Origin: Hydrogenimonas cancrithermarum
GTDB taxonomy: Bacteria > Campylobacterota > Campylobacteria > Campylobacterales > Hydrogenimonadaceae
Assembly: GCF_030296055.1 (NCBI RefSeq)
Contig: NZ_AP027370.1
Location: forward strand, 1,068,501 to 1,132,500
DNA: 64,000 nucleotides
Reading direction: 5' to 3'
The notes beneath the pieces were generated by a model. It was not told the DNA's origin. It was given only the letters and a program-made list of their open reading frames with translations, and searched no databases. The position numbers and the translations under genes were made by a program. The stretch's first letter is position 1. The number at the start of each line of letters is the position of its first letter. Of the stretch, positions 17,524-60,066 are shown in pieces.

Positions 17524-18105
17524 TTAAACGATATCCGGATTGAGAAACCTCTTTCCGGCCAACAGCTCCTCGAACATCTCCGGGTTGGACCACTCCGCCT
17601 TGACCCGTTCCGAGAAGACAATTCTATCGAGTTCGGTGGGGCCCATCGTGGAGTTGTAAGCATCCTCCCTCTTCGCTTTGGCGTATCCGGTTTCCGTTTC
17701 ATGGACGATGACACCCTCGAGCATGACATCCGATTCACCGTTGATCATCTCGGTCTGCTGGAGTACTCTATCGACGAGAAGGAAGATCGTGCGGGCGAAC
17801 TGCTCCGCCGAGGGGTTGACGGGCAGCTCCACCCAGCGCTCGCTCCACTTTTTCATATCGGCGAGATAGGCCGGATCGTCGCCGCTCCATAGCGTTATAG
17901 CATGATCGAACGCATCGATAAACTCTTTGATCATTCCCTTCGTGAGGCCGAAATCGTAGACCATCTGTCCGCGATCGAGAGAGGGTGCGGTAAAGAGAAG
18001 CTCCACCTTGTAGGAGTGTCCGTGAATGCTTCGACTGCAGCGCCTCGATGTACACTGCCGCACAATGTGTGCGTTCTCGAATTTGTAAAGCTTACGAATG
18101 AGCAT
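17524..18105 (-). CDS. queD: 6-carboxytetrahydropterin synthase QueD
   Basis: Makes 6-carboxy-tetrahydropterin from 7,8-dihydroneopterin triphosphate in the queuosine (preQ0) pathway. Length 193 from MLIRKLYKF, longer than the 120-residue minimal QueD but usual for Campylobacterota. Zinc ligands are visible as FENAHIV and HGHSY, with a Cys-rich stretch between them (CTSRRCSRSI) holding the catalytic cysteine. It lies 45 bp after queE in the same orientation, so both belong to one queuosine operon. Confidence 0.9.
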   Translation of the reverse strand: MLIRKLYKFENAHIVRQCTSRRCSRSIHGHSYKVELLFTAPSLDRGQMVYDFGLTKGMIKEFIDAFDHAITLWSGDDPAYLADMKKWSERWVELPVNPSAEQFARTIFLLVDRVLQQTEMINGESDVMLEGVIVHETETGYAKAKREDAYNSTMGPTELDRIVFSERVKAEWSNPEMFEELLAGKRFLNPDIV

Positions 18106-18114
18106 GAGCCCCTC

Positions 18115-18144
18115 CCCAATGTTCAACGTCCAACGACCAACGAC
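18115..18144 (-). repeat. Degenerate 7-bp repeat tract between queE and queD
   Basis: The tetramer CAAC/CAAT recurs at exactly 7-bp steps at 18117, 18124, 18131 and 18138 (plus strand). On the coding strand this reads as CGTTGnn units right after the queE stop. It resembles the heptamer tracts downstream of mnmG and beside moeA2. Confidence 0.6.
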
Positions 18145-18150
18145 AGATTC

Positions 18151-18906
18151 TCATCGTTTCTCCTCTCTGTTCCACAATCGCACATGCAGCCTGTCGCTGT
18201 AGCGATAGCCGGACCGCAGGCAAAACTCTGCCACAACCGGGGCGTTCGCTTGCAGTTGCCGCACATTGTCCCCCAGCGGCATACAGTAGATCTCATTCTC
18301 GAACGGCTCGCAAATTTCGCGAATCTCCCGCTCGACCTCCTTTTCTATCGAGGTAGAGTCGAGCGTAAACTTGAAAAAAGAGTCGTTCCCCTCCTCCGCC
18401 AGGCGCCGAATGATCCCGGGAACCACTCTCTTCGCTTTGGGTTCGCCGCTATTGGAAAGCTTGACCGCCATCGCGAAGGTTACGTCACGATAGGCAGGAT
18501 AGGCTTCAAACGGAGGTGCCAGCGTGGCATTGGTTTCGATCGTTACGCGAAACCCATGTTCCAACATCCATACGACCGTTTCGTAAAATATCGGATCTTC
18601 CGCATAGATCATCGGCTCTCCGCCGGTCAGAATGATATCGGGGCGATATGCAACTCTATCGACATATTGCATGACCACGCTTTGCAATGCCCCCTCATCG
18701 TCCACGCTCTTCCACATATGCTTGAAACGCTTTGTGTGTACTGCGCGTATCGTGTCGCATCCTGCAATCCTTTCCCCACCGATCTCATAGGCCCCGAAGC
18801 CCCGACATCGAAGATTGCAGCCGCCAAAACGCAAAAATATGGAAGGCACTCCGCTGTAGCGCCCCTCTCCCTGAATGGAAAAAAAGTGTTCGACCAGATA
18901 GATCAT
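18151..18906 (-). CDS. queE: 7-carboxy-7-deazaguanine synthase QueE (radical SAM)
   Basis: Converts 6-carboxytetrahydropterin to 7-carboxy-7-deazaguanine using an iron-sulphur cluster and SAM. Length 251. The N-terminus has the QueE signature SIQGEGRYSGVPSIFLRFGGC. The cluster cysteines appear to be Cys30, Cys34 and Cys50, that is Cx3C followed by a 15-residue insertion before GCDT, instead of the common Cx3Cx2C. TGGEPM near residue 85 is the SAM-binding GGE motif. The start is supported by AGAGG upstream. The 84-bp repeat array lies just upstream. Confidence 0.88.
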   Translation of the reverse strand: MIYLVEHFFSIQGEGRYSGVPSIFLRFGGCNLRCRGFGAYEIGGERIAGCDTIRAVHTKRFKHMWKSVDDEGALQSVVMQYVDRVAYRPDIILTGGEPMIYAEDPIFYETVVWMLEHGFRVTIETNATLAPPFEAYPAYRDVTFAMAVKLSNSGEPKAKRVVPGIIRRLAEEGNDSFFKFTLDSTSIEKEVEREIREICEPFENEIYCMPLGDNVRQLQANAPVVAEFCLRSGYRYSDRLHVRLWNREEKR

Positions 18907-18970
18907 CGATGCCTCTTGGCTTTCATCTGTTTCAATCTTGAAAACTTCCTTTTATTTCACTTCCGGCTAT

Positions 18971-19437
18971 CCGGACCATGCGGCTGCAAGTTTGCAGACC
19001 GCACGCTCGTAAATCGCCGTACGATTCAGCCTGGCCGTTCTTCCTTTGGCCCACCCGGACCATGCGGCTGCAAGTTTGCAGACCGCACGCTCGTAAATCG
19101 CCGTACGATTCAGCCTGGCCGTTCTTCCTTTGGCCCACCCGGACCATGCGGCTGCAAGTTTGCAGACCGCACGCTCGTAAATCGCCGTACGATTCAGCCT
19201 GGCCGTTCTTCCTTTGGCCCACCCGGACCATGCGGCTGCAAGTTTGCAGACCGCACGCTCGTAAATCGCCGTACGATTCAGCCTGGCCGTTCTTCCTTTG
19301 GCCCACCCGGACCATGCGGCTGCAAGTTTGCAGACCGCACGCTCGTAAATCGCCGTACGATTCAGCCTGGCCGTTCTTCCTTTGGCCCACCCGGACCATG
19401 CGGCTGCAAGTTTGCAGACCGCACGCTCGTAAATCGC
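18971..19437. repeat. Perfect 84-bp tandem repeat array (five full copies plus 47 bp)
   Basis: Full units start at 18971, 19055, 19139, 19223 and 19307, and a partial one at 19391. All copies are identical base for base as far as I can read. Each carries a near-perfect palindrome (TGCGGCTGCAA against TTGCAGACCGCA). Because 84 is divisible by three, several frames stay open through the array on both strands, giving spurious 28-residue peptide repeats. The 568-bp gap 18907-19474 between moaA and queE holds only this array and the moaA terminator. Continuous units without unique spacers rule out CRISPR. Confidence 0.97.
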
Positions 19438-19439
19438 TA

Positions 19440-19463
19440 AAAAAGGCAAGCAGTTGCCTTTTT
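19440..19463 (-). terminator. Intrinsic terminator of moaA
   Basis: Perfect 10-bp stem, AAAAAGGCAA with TTGCCTTTTT, around a 4-nt loop, 12 bp past the moaA stop. On the minus strand it runs into six U residues. Its symmetry would also allow it to work from the other side. Confidence 0.85.
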
Positions 19464-19474
19464 CTTTACGCGAT

Positions 19475-20440
19475 TTACCCACCCGTTTCGTAAAATGCAC
19501 GGGTCGACTCTTCGCCGTTCTCTTCATCCCATCGGTTTTTCTCCGGCTTGTTGCGAAGTACTTCACGAAGCACCTCGCTCGCTCCTTCTATGTCACCGGC
19601 TTTGACGGCATCCCGGATACTCATAGCTTCATCAAAATAGAGGCAAGGAATTAGAAATCCCTCGGCCGTAAGACGAATACGGTTACAGCTTTCGCAAAAA
19701 TCGTGTTTATGCGGATCGATGACTCCGAACTTGTAACCGTCATCCGTCAGGTAGTTGAACGCGGGACTGCTTCCCTCTCGACCCACTTTTTTTATGACAT
19801 ACTTCTCTTTCACCCTTTCGAGAATCTCTTTGCCGCTCAAGCCTTTCAACCCTACCTTGGCATGAACGTTCTCCATATATTCGATATAACGAATCGTCAT
19901 GCCACGCGCTTTGGCGTACTCCATCACATCGACGATCTCGTCGTCGTTGATTCCCTTCAGGGGAACCATGTTGACTTTCACTTTCAAGCCAACTTCAAGT
20001 GCTTTTTCAACACCTGCGAGTACTTTGTCCAATACATCTTTCTGGGCTATTTTTGCCGCAACTTCGGGTTTGAGCGAGTCTATGGAGATGTTGATTCGCT
20101 TGAGGCCCACCTCTTTCAGCCGCTCCGCCACGTCAGCGAGGAGATACCCGTTGGTCGTAAGCGCCAGATCGATATCGGGTTTATGGTCGTGAATCATTTG
20201 AACAAAACGATCGAGATCTTCACGCAGAAGCGGTTCGCCTCCCGTGATACGGATCTTGTCGACCCCTTCGTCGATCGCGACGCGTACAAAGCTGAAAAGC
20301 TCTTCGAAGCTGAGAAGATTCTCACGCGGAACCCATGAAAACGGTTTCTCCGGCATACAGTATTGGCAACGGAAATTACATCGTTCCGTCACGGAGATTC
20401 TAAGATAATTGACCGTTCGGCCATGTCCGTCTATTAACAT
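19475..20440 (-). CDS. moaA: GTP 3',8-cyclase MoaA (radical SAM)
   Basis: First step of molybdenum cofactor synthesis, converting GTP to 3',8-cyclo-GTP. Length 321. The N-terminal cluster motif is Cys21, Cys25, Cys28 ([10 protein letters not shown]) and the C-terminal second cluster is Cys249, Cys252, Cys266. It ends in Gly-Gly, the tail needed for catalysis in MoaA. It is transcribed alone: no moa gene is adjacent, and a strong terminator follows directly. Confidence 0.96.
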
Positions 20441-20511
20441 TGCAACTCTTTGAAGAGAAATTTACTCTTATTTTACTGCAAATACTAAAAAAGAAGTTTA
20501 ATCGTAGAAAG

Positions 20512-20539
20512 AATCCGCAAAGCCGAAGCTCCGCGGATT
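20512..20539 (-). terminator. Terminator of the petABC operon
   Basis: A 12-bp stem capped by a UUCG tetraloop on the minus strand (AATCCGCGGAGC paired with GCTTTGCGGATT, including two G-U pairs), followed by CUUUCU. It begins 21 bp after the petC stop. Confidence 0.75.
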
Positions 20540-20559
20540 ATAGAAGAGGAAAAGAGTTC

Positions 20560-21492
20560 TTAGTGAAGCTCTTTCCAGATGCTCTGTTTCCAGAGGTAGG
20601 CGAGGAAAGCGAAGATGAAGAGATAGATCATCACTTTTTTCCCGACACTGTCGCGCTCGGCATGTTTGCTGTCGCCGACTTCCGTCAGATACTCGAGGAC
20701 TTTCTCGGCGCTTTCGGCCGTTACACCGACACGCGGCATCGCGGTACCCGGAAGAAGGTTCTGTGGATTTTCCATGAATGTCTTGATGTAGTGCTCGCCG
20801 CGTGAGCGGATATACATCGAAAGATCCGGCGGAAGTTTACCCATATACTTGGTCAGGTGATCCTGATAGTCGAGTACTTTCGCATCGTAAAGAAGCTCGT
20901 CTTTTTTATACTTGAACTTCGGCTTTTCACCCATTTGCGTCCAGTTGTCGTAATGGACGGCATGACAACGTCCACACGCTGTTTCAAACGCCATTTTAGG
21001 CGTAATTTCTTCAGCCTTCGGAGCGATCGATTTCAGATAAGCTACGATATCTGCAACTTCCTGATCGATATCCCCGCCAAGACCGTAGAAAGCTGTCATA
21101 GGATGTTGTCGCCCGCCGGTAAATTTGTGTTCAACTTTCAGAGCGTGCGCAGGATTTTTAATCAGTGCTGAAAGAAACTTTTCGTCAAAAATCGCACCAG
21201 CCTCACTGAGATCCGGAGGATTGACACCAAAACTTTGTGCTGCTGCAATAGGATCCATTGGCGCGGGCATACCTTGAGATTTGACACCATGGCACCCAAT
21301 ACATCCAGCATTCATAAAGGTTTCGGCACCTTTGGCCGCATCACCTTTCTTGCCTGTATCTTTCAGATCGTTGTAGGCAAAGTTTTCACTCTCGACATGC
21401 GGATGCATGACAGAGTGCGCATATGGCTCGACACCCCAATAGGTCAGCAGTGTAAAGAATACGACTACCGCTAAAATTTTCAATTCTTTCAT
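20560..21492 (-). CDS. petC: Di-haem cytochrome c1 subunit of the bc1 complex
   Basis: Membrane-anchored cytochrome receiving electrons from the Rieske protein. Length 310 from MKELKILA. It has an N-terminal helix (5-20), haem sites CIGCH (64-68) and CGRCH (173-177), and a C-terminal membrane anchor (about 285-303). Two haems in a fused c4-like subunit is the epsilonproteobacterial and H. pylori type of bc1. A 30-codon upstream extension overlaps petB and is not supported. Third gene of petABC, 10 bp after petB. Confidence 0.93.
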   Translation of the reverse strand: MKELKILAVVVFFTLLTYWGVEPYAHSVMHPHVESENFAYNDLKDTGKKGDAAKGAETFMNAGCIGCHGVKSQGMPAPMDPIAAAQSFGVNPPDLSEAGAIFDEKFLSALIKNPAHALKVEHKFTGGRQHPMTAFYGLGGDIDQEVADIVAYLKSIAPKAEEITPKMAFETACGRCHAVHYDNWTQMGEKPKFKYKKDELLYDAKVLDYQDHLTKYMGKLPPDLSMYIRSRGEHYIKTFMENPQNLLPGTAMPRVGVTAESAEKVLEYLTEVGDSKHAERDSVGKKVMIYLFIFAFLAYLWKQSIWKELH

Positions 21493-24525: not shown

Positions 24526-24551
24526 TTTTTAGTTTTTAGTTTTTAGTTTTT
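24526..24551 (-). repeat. Heptanucleotide tract covering the mnmG stop codon
   Basis: Three full TTTTTAG units plus TTTTT (plus strand), which on the coding strand read as CTAAAAA repeats with a TAA every 7 bp. The last few codons and the stop of mnmG are encoded by the tract. Confidence 0.9.
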
Positions 24552-60026: not shown

Positions 60027-60066
60027 ACTTCTCACTTCTCACTTCTCACTTCTCACTTCTCACTTC
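60027..60066 (-). repeat. Heptamer tract covering the moeA2 stop codon
   Basis: Five perfect ACTTCTC units plus ACTTC (plus strand). On the moeA2 coding strand they read GAGAAGT with TGA every 7 bp. The moeA2 stop codon lies inside the tract. Confidence 0.95.

Follow-up and report, generated by a model that had tools for sequence, protein, structure and literature searches.

What is the perfect tandem repeat that separates moaA from queE in Hydrogenimonas cancrithermarum, and does it serve the genes beside it? The 64,000-nucleotide stretch of this genome that we analysed (henceforth the window) carries at positions 18971-19437 a tandem array of period 84 and 5.6 copies with 100% matches and 0 indels (TRF, score 934), in agreement with the original prediction of five identical 84-bp units plus a partial one. 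The units lie at 18971-19054, 19055-19138, 19139-19222, 19223-19306, and 19307-19390 and are followed by 47 bp at 19391-19437; since they are 100% identical, the expansion should be recent, as had been proposed. The array is flanked by moaA (19475-20440, minus strand; TIGR02666, 362 bits, above the cut-off) and, 64 bp beyond its other end, by a queE-like gene (18151-18906, minus strand; QueE families at 44-53 bits, below the curated cut-offs) and a queD-like gene (17524-18126, minus strand; TIGR03367, 63.7 bits, below the cut-off of 89). The near-perfect palindrome noticed in each unit is real: TGCGGCTGCAAGTTTGCAGACCGCA, at 18979-19003 in the queE-proximal unit and recurring every 84 bp, forms a stem in which a single base stays unpaired, and the hairpin points the same way as moaA and queE. 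Folded as RNA, one unit reaches -35.7 kcal/mol on the minus strand (z = -2.7 versus shuffles), against z = -1.15 on the plus strand.

The partial sixth unit proved to be more than its description implied. Its 47 bp are present, but they are not a mere truncated unit: they are the terminal part of a complete, two-domain copy of an element at 19391-19479 on the minus strand, which begins in the stop codon of moaA (covariance model R2, 98.4 bits, E = 3.3e-20; alignment A1). The hairpin next to the array at 19438-19479, absent from the earlier description, is part of the same object. From moaA onward the minus strand reads GG-TAA(stop)-ATCGCG-TAAAG-AAAAAGGCAA-CTGC-TTGCCTTTTTT-AG-CGATTTAC-GAG-CGTGCGG-T-CTGCA-AACT-TGCAG-CCGCATG-GTCCGG, and folds into a 9-bp stem 1 that encloses a first hairpin (HP1) and is followed by a second hairpin (HP2) with a bulged U. 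The left arm of stem 1, GTAAATCGC (19470-19478, minus strand), contains the moaA stop TAA (19477-19475), as judged from the structure line of the covariance model, the ORF coordinates, and covariation. HP1, AAAAAGGCAA-CTGC-TTGCCTTTTT (19440-19463, minus strand; fold and covariance model), is the only HP1 in the window and is terminator-like, with a CUGC loop and a U6 tail. The covariance model places the right arm of stem 1, GCGATTTAC, at 19429-19437 (minus strand), followed by HP2 at 19391-19428 (minus strand; GCGG-U-CUGCA / UGCAG-CCGC), on which fold, alignment, and covariance model agree. The five units of the array proper (18971-19390, minus strand) begin at the right arm of stem 1, and in the place of HP1 they hold a mini-stem, GAATCG-TACGG-CGATTTAC; each thus comprises a short left arm GAATCG, a 5-nt loop, the right arm CGATTTAC, the bulged HP2, and a spacer. 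The array units are therefore HP1-less copies of the element, and model R2 recovers all five of them at 35.5 bits each.

A search with the unit in the same and in related genomes, which the original prediction had recommended, found the array at one locus only in its own genome, whereas the element recurs elsewhere in that genome and in relatives. Two further copies reside in the window's genome, one between sucC and sucD and one at the edge of a CRISPR array. Nearly all matches in 10 of the first 100 genomes searched (the window's own counted) were confined to the first 47 nt of the unit, and these first-round matches adjoin fabG-acpP, moaD, and moaA. The first covariance model (R1), built from seven full copies with both partners altered in 17 of 33 pairs, detected the element in 18/18 Hydrogenimonas genomes and in 62 of 150 sampled genomes. 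In one genome (G010) the fabG stop is TGA, and stem 1 and HP2 are both rewritten with pairing largely kept. An alignment of 128 matches (120 distinct) has 87% of cells paired, compared with no more than 42% after sliding of the partner, and a covariation score of 0.480 for the 120 sequences versus 0.111 for shuffles and at most 0.066 for slid controls, though phylogenetic independence does not hold for the sequences compared, many of which are from MAGs. The HP1 pattern occurs in at least 119 stretches of the GTDB collection against a chance expectation of 0.007; among the 80 listed matches 72 are labelled Campylobacterota, the other eight being from Patescibacteria, Beta- and Gammaproteobacteria, a Caldisericaceae-labelled MAG, or unclassified. 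The element, non-coding, about 90-160 bp long, and with a conserved two-domain core of 89 nt, is scattered through vent-type Campylobacterota genomes, where its start often falls exactly at a gene's stop codon. It is new in the sense that it is missing from Rfam, where searches at gathering and at relaxed thresholds gave nothing but rRNA, tRNA, and a single leader below threshold, and that none of the open-access papers searched describes it. It was absent from the phage collection searched and found on one Sulfurovum mangrovi plasmid in the plasmid collection; one viral contig matches the HP1 pattern.

How the copies sit relative to genes bears on what the element is. Besides moaA and moaD, it was found after fabG, sucC, groEL, and argS, as well as in tRNA genes and CRISPR arrays. 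Where the upstream gene could be classified (104 copies), 77 copies lie in the sense orientation and 27 do not, and the stop codon is exactly 4 nt before CGT in 34 of the 77. Proteins that end at the element have Met as last residue in 19 of 32 cases and Trp in 6 of 32, compared with a background of 40/761 (Fisher p about 1e-23, a value inflated by orthologues). At fabG in Sulfurovum-like genomes, the element stands directly after the last ATG codon in 5 of 21 readable sisters, its own TGA serving as the stop; one further sister has a degenerate copy, and in 15 the element is absent and TAA or TAG is kept. As a separate observation, five fabG 3' ends that have no element carry perfect inverted repeats spanning the stop codon, for example TTTATGTAATACGGC-ATAT-GCCGTATTACATAAA at L245; such repeats reach into the coding sequence and differ between sister genomes.

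Other copies in relatives interrupt recognizable sequences, namely tRNA genes, three rRNA leaders, the peroxiredoxin gene bcp, and CRISPR repeats. The interrupted stretch is often duplicated and ends exactly at the left edge of the element (61/50, 64, 49, 35, 25, 25, and 19-23 nt). These target duplications, of variable length between 19 and 64 nt, occur at bcp, tRNA, rRNA-leader, Betaproteobacteria, and Nitrosomonadales loci. Duplication scores of at least 14 were reached by 24 of 135 observed copies, some of them tandem, versus 3 of 405 mismatched controls. Unlike the tRNA, rRNA, and bcp copies, those at stop codons have no long target duplication, a point against a mobile element. Where there is a target duplication, we rejected the idea that the left arm of stem 1 derives from the target, as the arm of such copies lies within the element. 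Together, the duplications and the empty fabG sites suggest an element that may be mobile to this day.

Several of these sites merit description in their own right. Seven loci have a copy in or at the edge of a CRISPR array, with junctions that fall within the CRISPR repeat, and several of these copies adjoin cas2 and RT-Cas1-like genes. Directly 3' of tRNA genes (five loci), the left arm of stem 1 overlaps the tRNA 3' end; two of these loci are labelled Patescibacteria. One genome (G007) bears the element in three rRNA leaders, where a boxA-like ACGAGATCTTTGACAACCA is duplicated, and at L124 (3107-3140 and 4387-4420) it sits in two RHS/YD-repeat reading frames just before a conserved REYDSFTGKWTAKDP motif.

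Tandem modules are likewise not peculiar to the window. Another module follows 26 of 152 copies; some arrays repeat HP1 plus HP2, others HP2 only as in the window. The window's array is the longest found, followed by that at L194 (at least four 50-nt units, identical in the 36 nt compared), one of five HP1-less arrays of the same kind (with L180, L098, L121, and L147). We consider it likely that the array is a local expansion of the second module of a non-autonomous mobile hairpin repeat, of BOX-like architecture, inserted at the 3' end of moaA. On this model, a small non-coding element of about 90-160 bp, unable to move on its own, would have landed at the 3' end of moaA, facing the same way as that gene. 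Its second module (stem-1 right arm, bulged hairpin, and spacer, with a 5-nt loop left of HP1) would then have multiplied head-to-tail into five identical units; slippage during replication or unequal recombination between the hairpins is the probable and simplest cause of the expansion. The array itself would be mainly neutral or selfish.

The strong 77:27 sense bias at gene 3' ends speaks against a mobile element and could mean a host function. The element might then be maintained by the host as a transcript-end or terminator hairpin, original or domesticated, that protects or terminates mRNA, with the array as a by-product. The 34 of 77 sense copies with the stop at a fixed distance, the preserved natural C-termini of FabG, GroEL, and ArgS in the presence of the element, and the U6 tail of HP1 in the window would all fit. 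The window's HP1 does have the intrinsic-terminator layout (GC stem plus U run), but a G breaks the U tract in about 55% of copies (pair 17-45: CG 66, AU 51), so that the majority depart from the canonical intrinsic terminator. The element also occurs in tRNA genes, CRISPR repeats, and an RHS gene, and only 5 of the 21 readable sister genomes have the element at fabG. On balance we regard a host-maintained element as unlikely, and a mobile repeat as the better account.

The original prediction had suggested a leader of queE-queD whose hairpin copy number might tune expression. The array does end 64 bp short of queE on its coding strand, where transcription would make it a folded 5' UTR, but relatives mostly lack the element at this position. 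The moaA-queE junction is free of it in eight genus genomes (L016, L017, L019, L023, L024, L026, L027, and L028), where it is empty down to overlapping moaA and queE genes; G015, the one further carrier that we found, has no array but one truncated copy with a damaged HP2. The same element also stands beside unrelated genes, in tRNA genes, and in CRISPR arrays, and hence does not belong to queE in particular. On the transcribed strand, moreover, the U6-tailed hairpin separates moaA from the array, so read-through from moaA is not assured; being terminator-like, HP1 may attenuate it. No promoter-like site was found in 18800-20600, a weak test. We found nothing that links the array to queuosine genes. 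A tuning role is thus unsupported and, as an explanation of the array, improbable; side effects such as termination after moaA or a folded queE leader are possible, as is some influence on queE confined to this strain. Least probable of all is an assembly artefact or a coding minisatellite: identical units are a classic assembly hazard, an error in their number is possible, 84 is 3 x 28, and ORFs of 155-512 aa run through the array, which is open in four frames, yet many independent genomes contain the element, both dispersed and in module arrays, with unit lengths elsewhere (50, 55, 58, 48, and 56) that are mostly not multiples of 3.

Among known systems, a mobile hairpin repeat of this kind most invites comparison with the BOX elements of Streptococcus pneumoniae, built as boxA-boxB(n)-boxC (PMC3049150). 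Both are small, non-coding, interspersed, RNA-foldable, and modular, with one module in variable tandem number (26 of 152 copies here), and both are enriched at the 3' sides of genes and probably move non-autonomously. Our element differs in having two hairpin domains rather than A-B-C, a terminal amplified module, and long variable target duplications; it belongs to another phylum, has its matches outside streptococci, and is likened to BOX by architecture, not by sequence. Variable direct repeats of 8-514 bp are made by IS1549/IS1634 (PMC2266710), which resemble it in their long, variable target duplications but are DDE insertion sequences of 1.5-2 kb, whereas no transposase or terminal inverted repeats were seen in the element. 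The features tested do not establish membership in BOX or IS1549/IS1634. Nor does it look like a MITE of a DDE insertion sequence, having duplications of variable length (19-64 nt) and no terminal inverted repeats that we noticed; RUP, SPRITE, Correia, ERIC, and RU repeats share its nature as short, structured intergenic repeats, but neither terminal inverted repeats nor a fixed short target duplication was found in the element. REP/REPIN palindromes, 20-40 bp long, GTAG/CGTC-tagged, associated with RAYTs, and reported as CGTC repeats from Sulfurovum sp. NBC37-1 (PMC3733652), are likewise hairpin repeats between genes with a bulged stem; by contrast, the element has 90-160 bp, two domains, and no GTAG-tagged foot, its CGTN being part of an internal loop. 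A ToxI-like type III toxin-antitoxin RNA array would be expected beside a toxin gene, but none lies directly downstream, the neighbours being moaA and queE/queD. Attachment sites of integrons were dropped on anatomy, as the arms are not attC boxes, and so were group II intron domains, retrons, TIGR/OMEGA RNAs, and type III antitoxins, for which there were no cognate genes and no spacers.

If the element is moved by an enzyme, the obvious candidates do not track it. Y1_Tnp, the RAYT domain, is present in 33 of 62 element-bearing genomes versus 34 of 88 others (p = 0.10), and the Y1 genes retrieved had no element next to them; RVT_1 is present in 17/62 versus 24/88 (p = 1); and 21 of the 62 element genomes have neither, which also counts against a mobile element. 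A Y1 transposase or a reverse transcriptase as mobilizer was therefore rejected for want of association across genomes, and the reverse transcriptases adjoining copies look like RT-Cas1 fusions beside cas2 at CRISPR loci. The two hairpins differ in their pairs. HP1 has 1180 of 1190 cells Watson-Crick, 0 G-U, and 5 A-C, and although the search pattern had set some positions of HP1 in advance, its variable positions are also free of G-U; HP2 has 30 G-U versus 7 A-C. Selection on HP1 as RNA only is therefore doubtful. From this contrast we take HP1 to be probably maintained as a palindrome of the DNA or mended by template switching (PMC8794818), either of which would be expected to leave Watson-Crick pairs, and HP2 to be a putative fold of one strand, for which G-U pairs would be expected. 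It is tempting, if speculative, to place the element in a hitherto unrecognized, structure-defined class of Campylobacterota mobile elements that would insert exactly behind the last sense codon and ahead of the stop, supplying their own in-frame stop, leave long variable target duplications elsewhere, amplify their second domain, and be moved by an enzyme via a folded single-strand intermediate; we think this rather doubtful.

What looked like an isolated minisatellite is thus a copy from a repeat family that is widespread in an understudied phylum and has gone uncatalogued. Its oddities lend themselves to testing: the element brings its own stop codon, prefers genes whose last sense codon specifies Met or Trp, has inserted into CRISPR repeats and into tRNA genes, and amplifies its own modules. 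The annotation of these genomes would change as well, because apparent gene-specific leaders or terminators would be insertions. Finally, the window also holds short heptanucleotide repeats, ACTTCTC x5.7 at 60027-60066 and TTTTTAG x3.7 at 24526-24551, which are akin to heptad runs between genes in relatives (L017 and L245).
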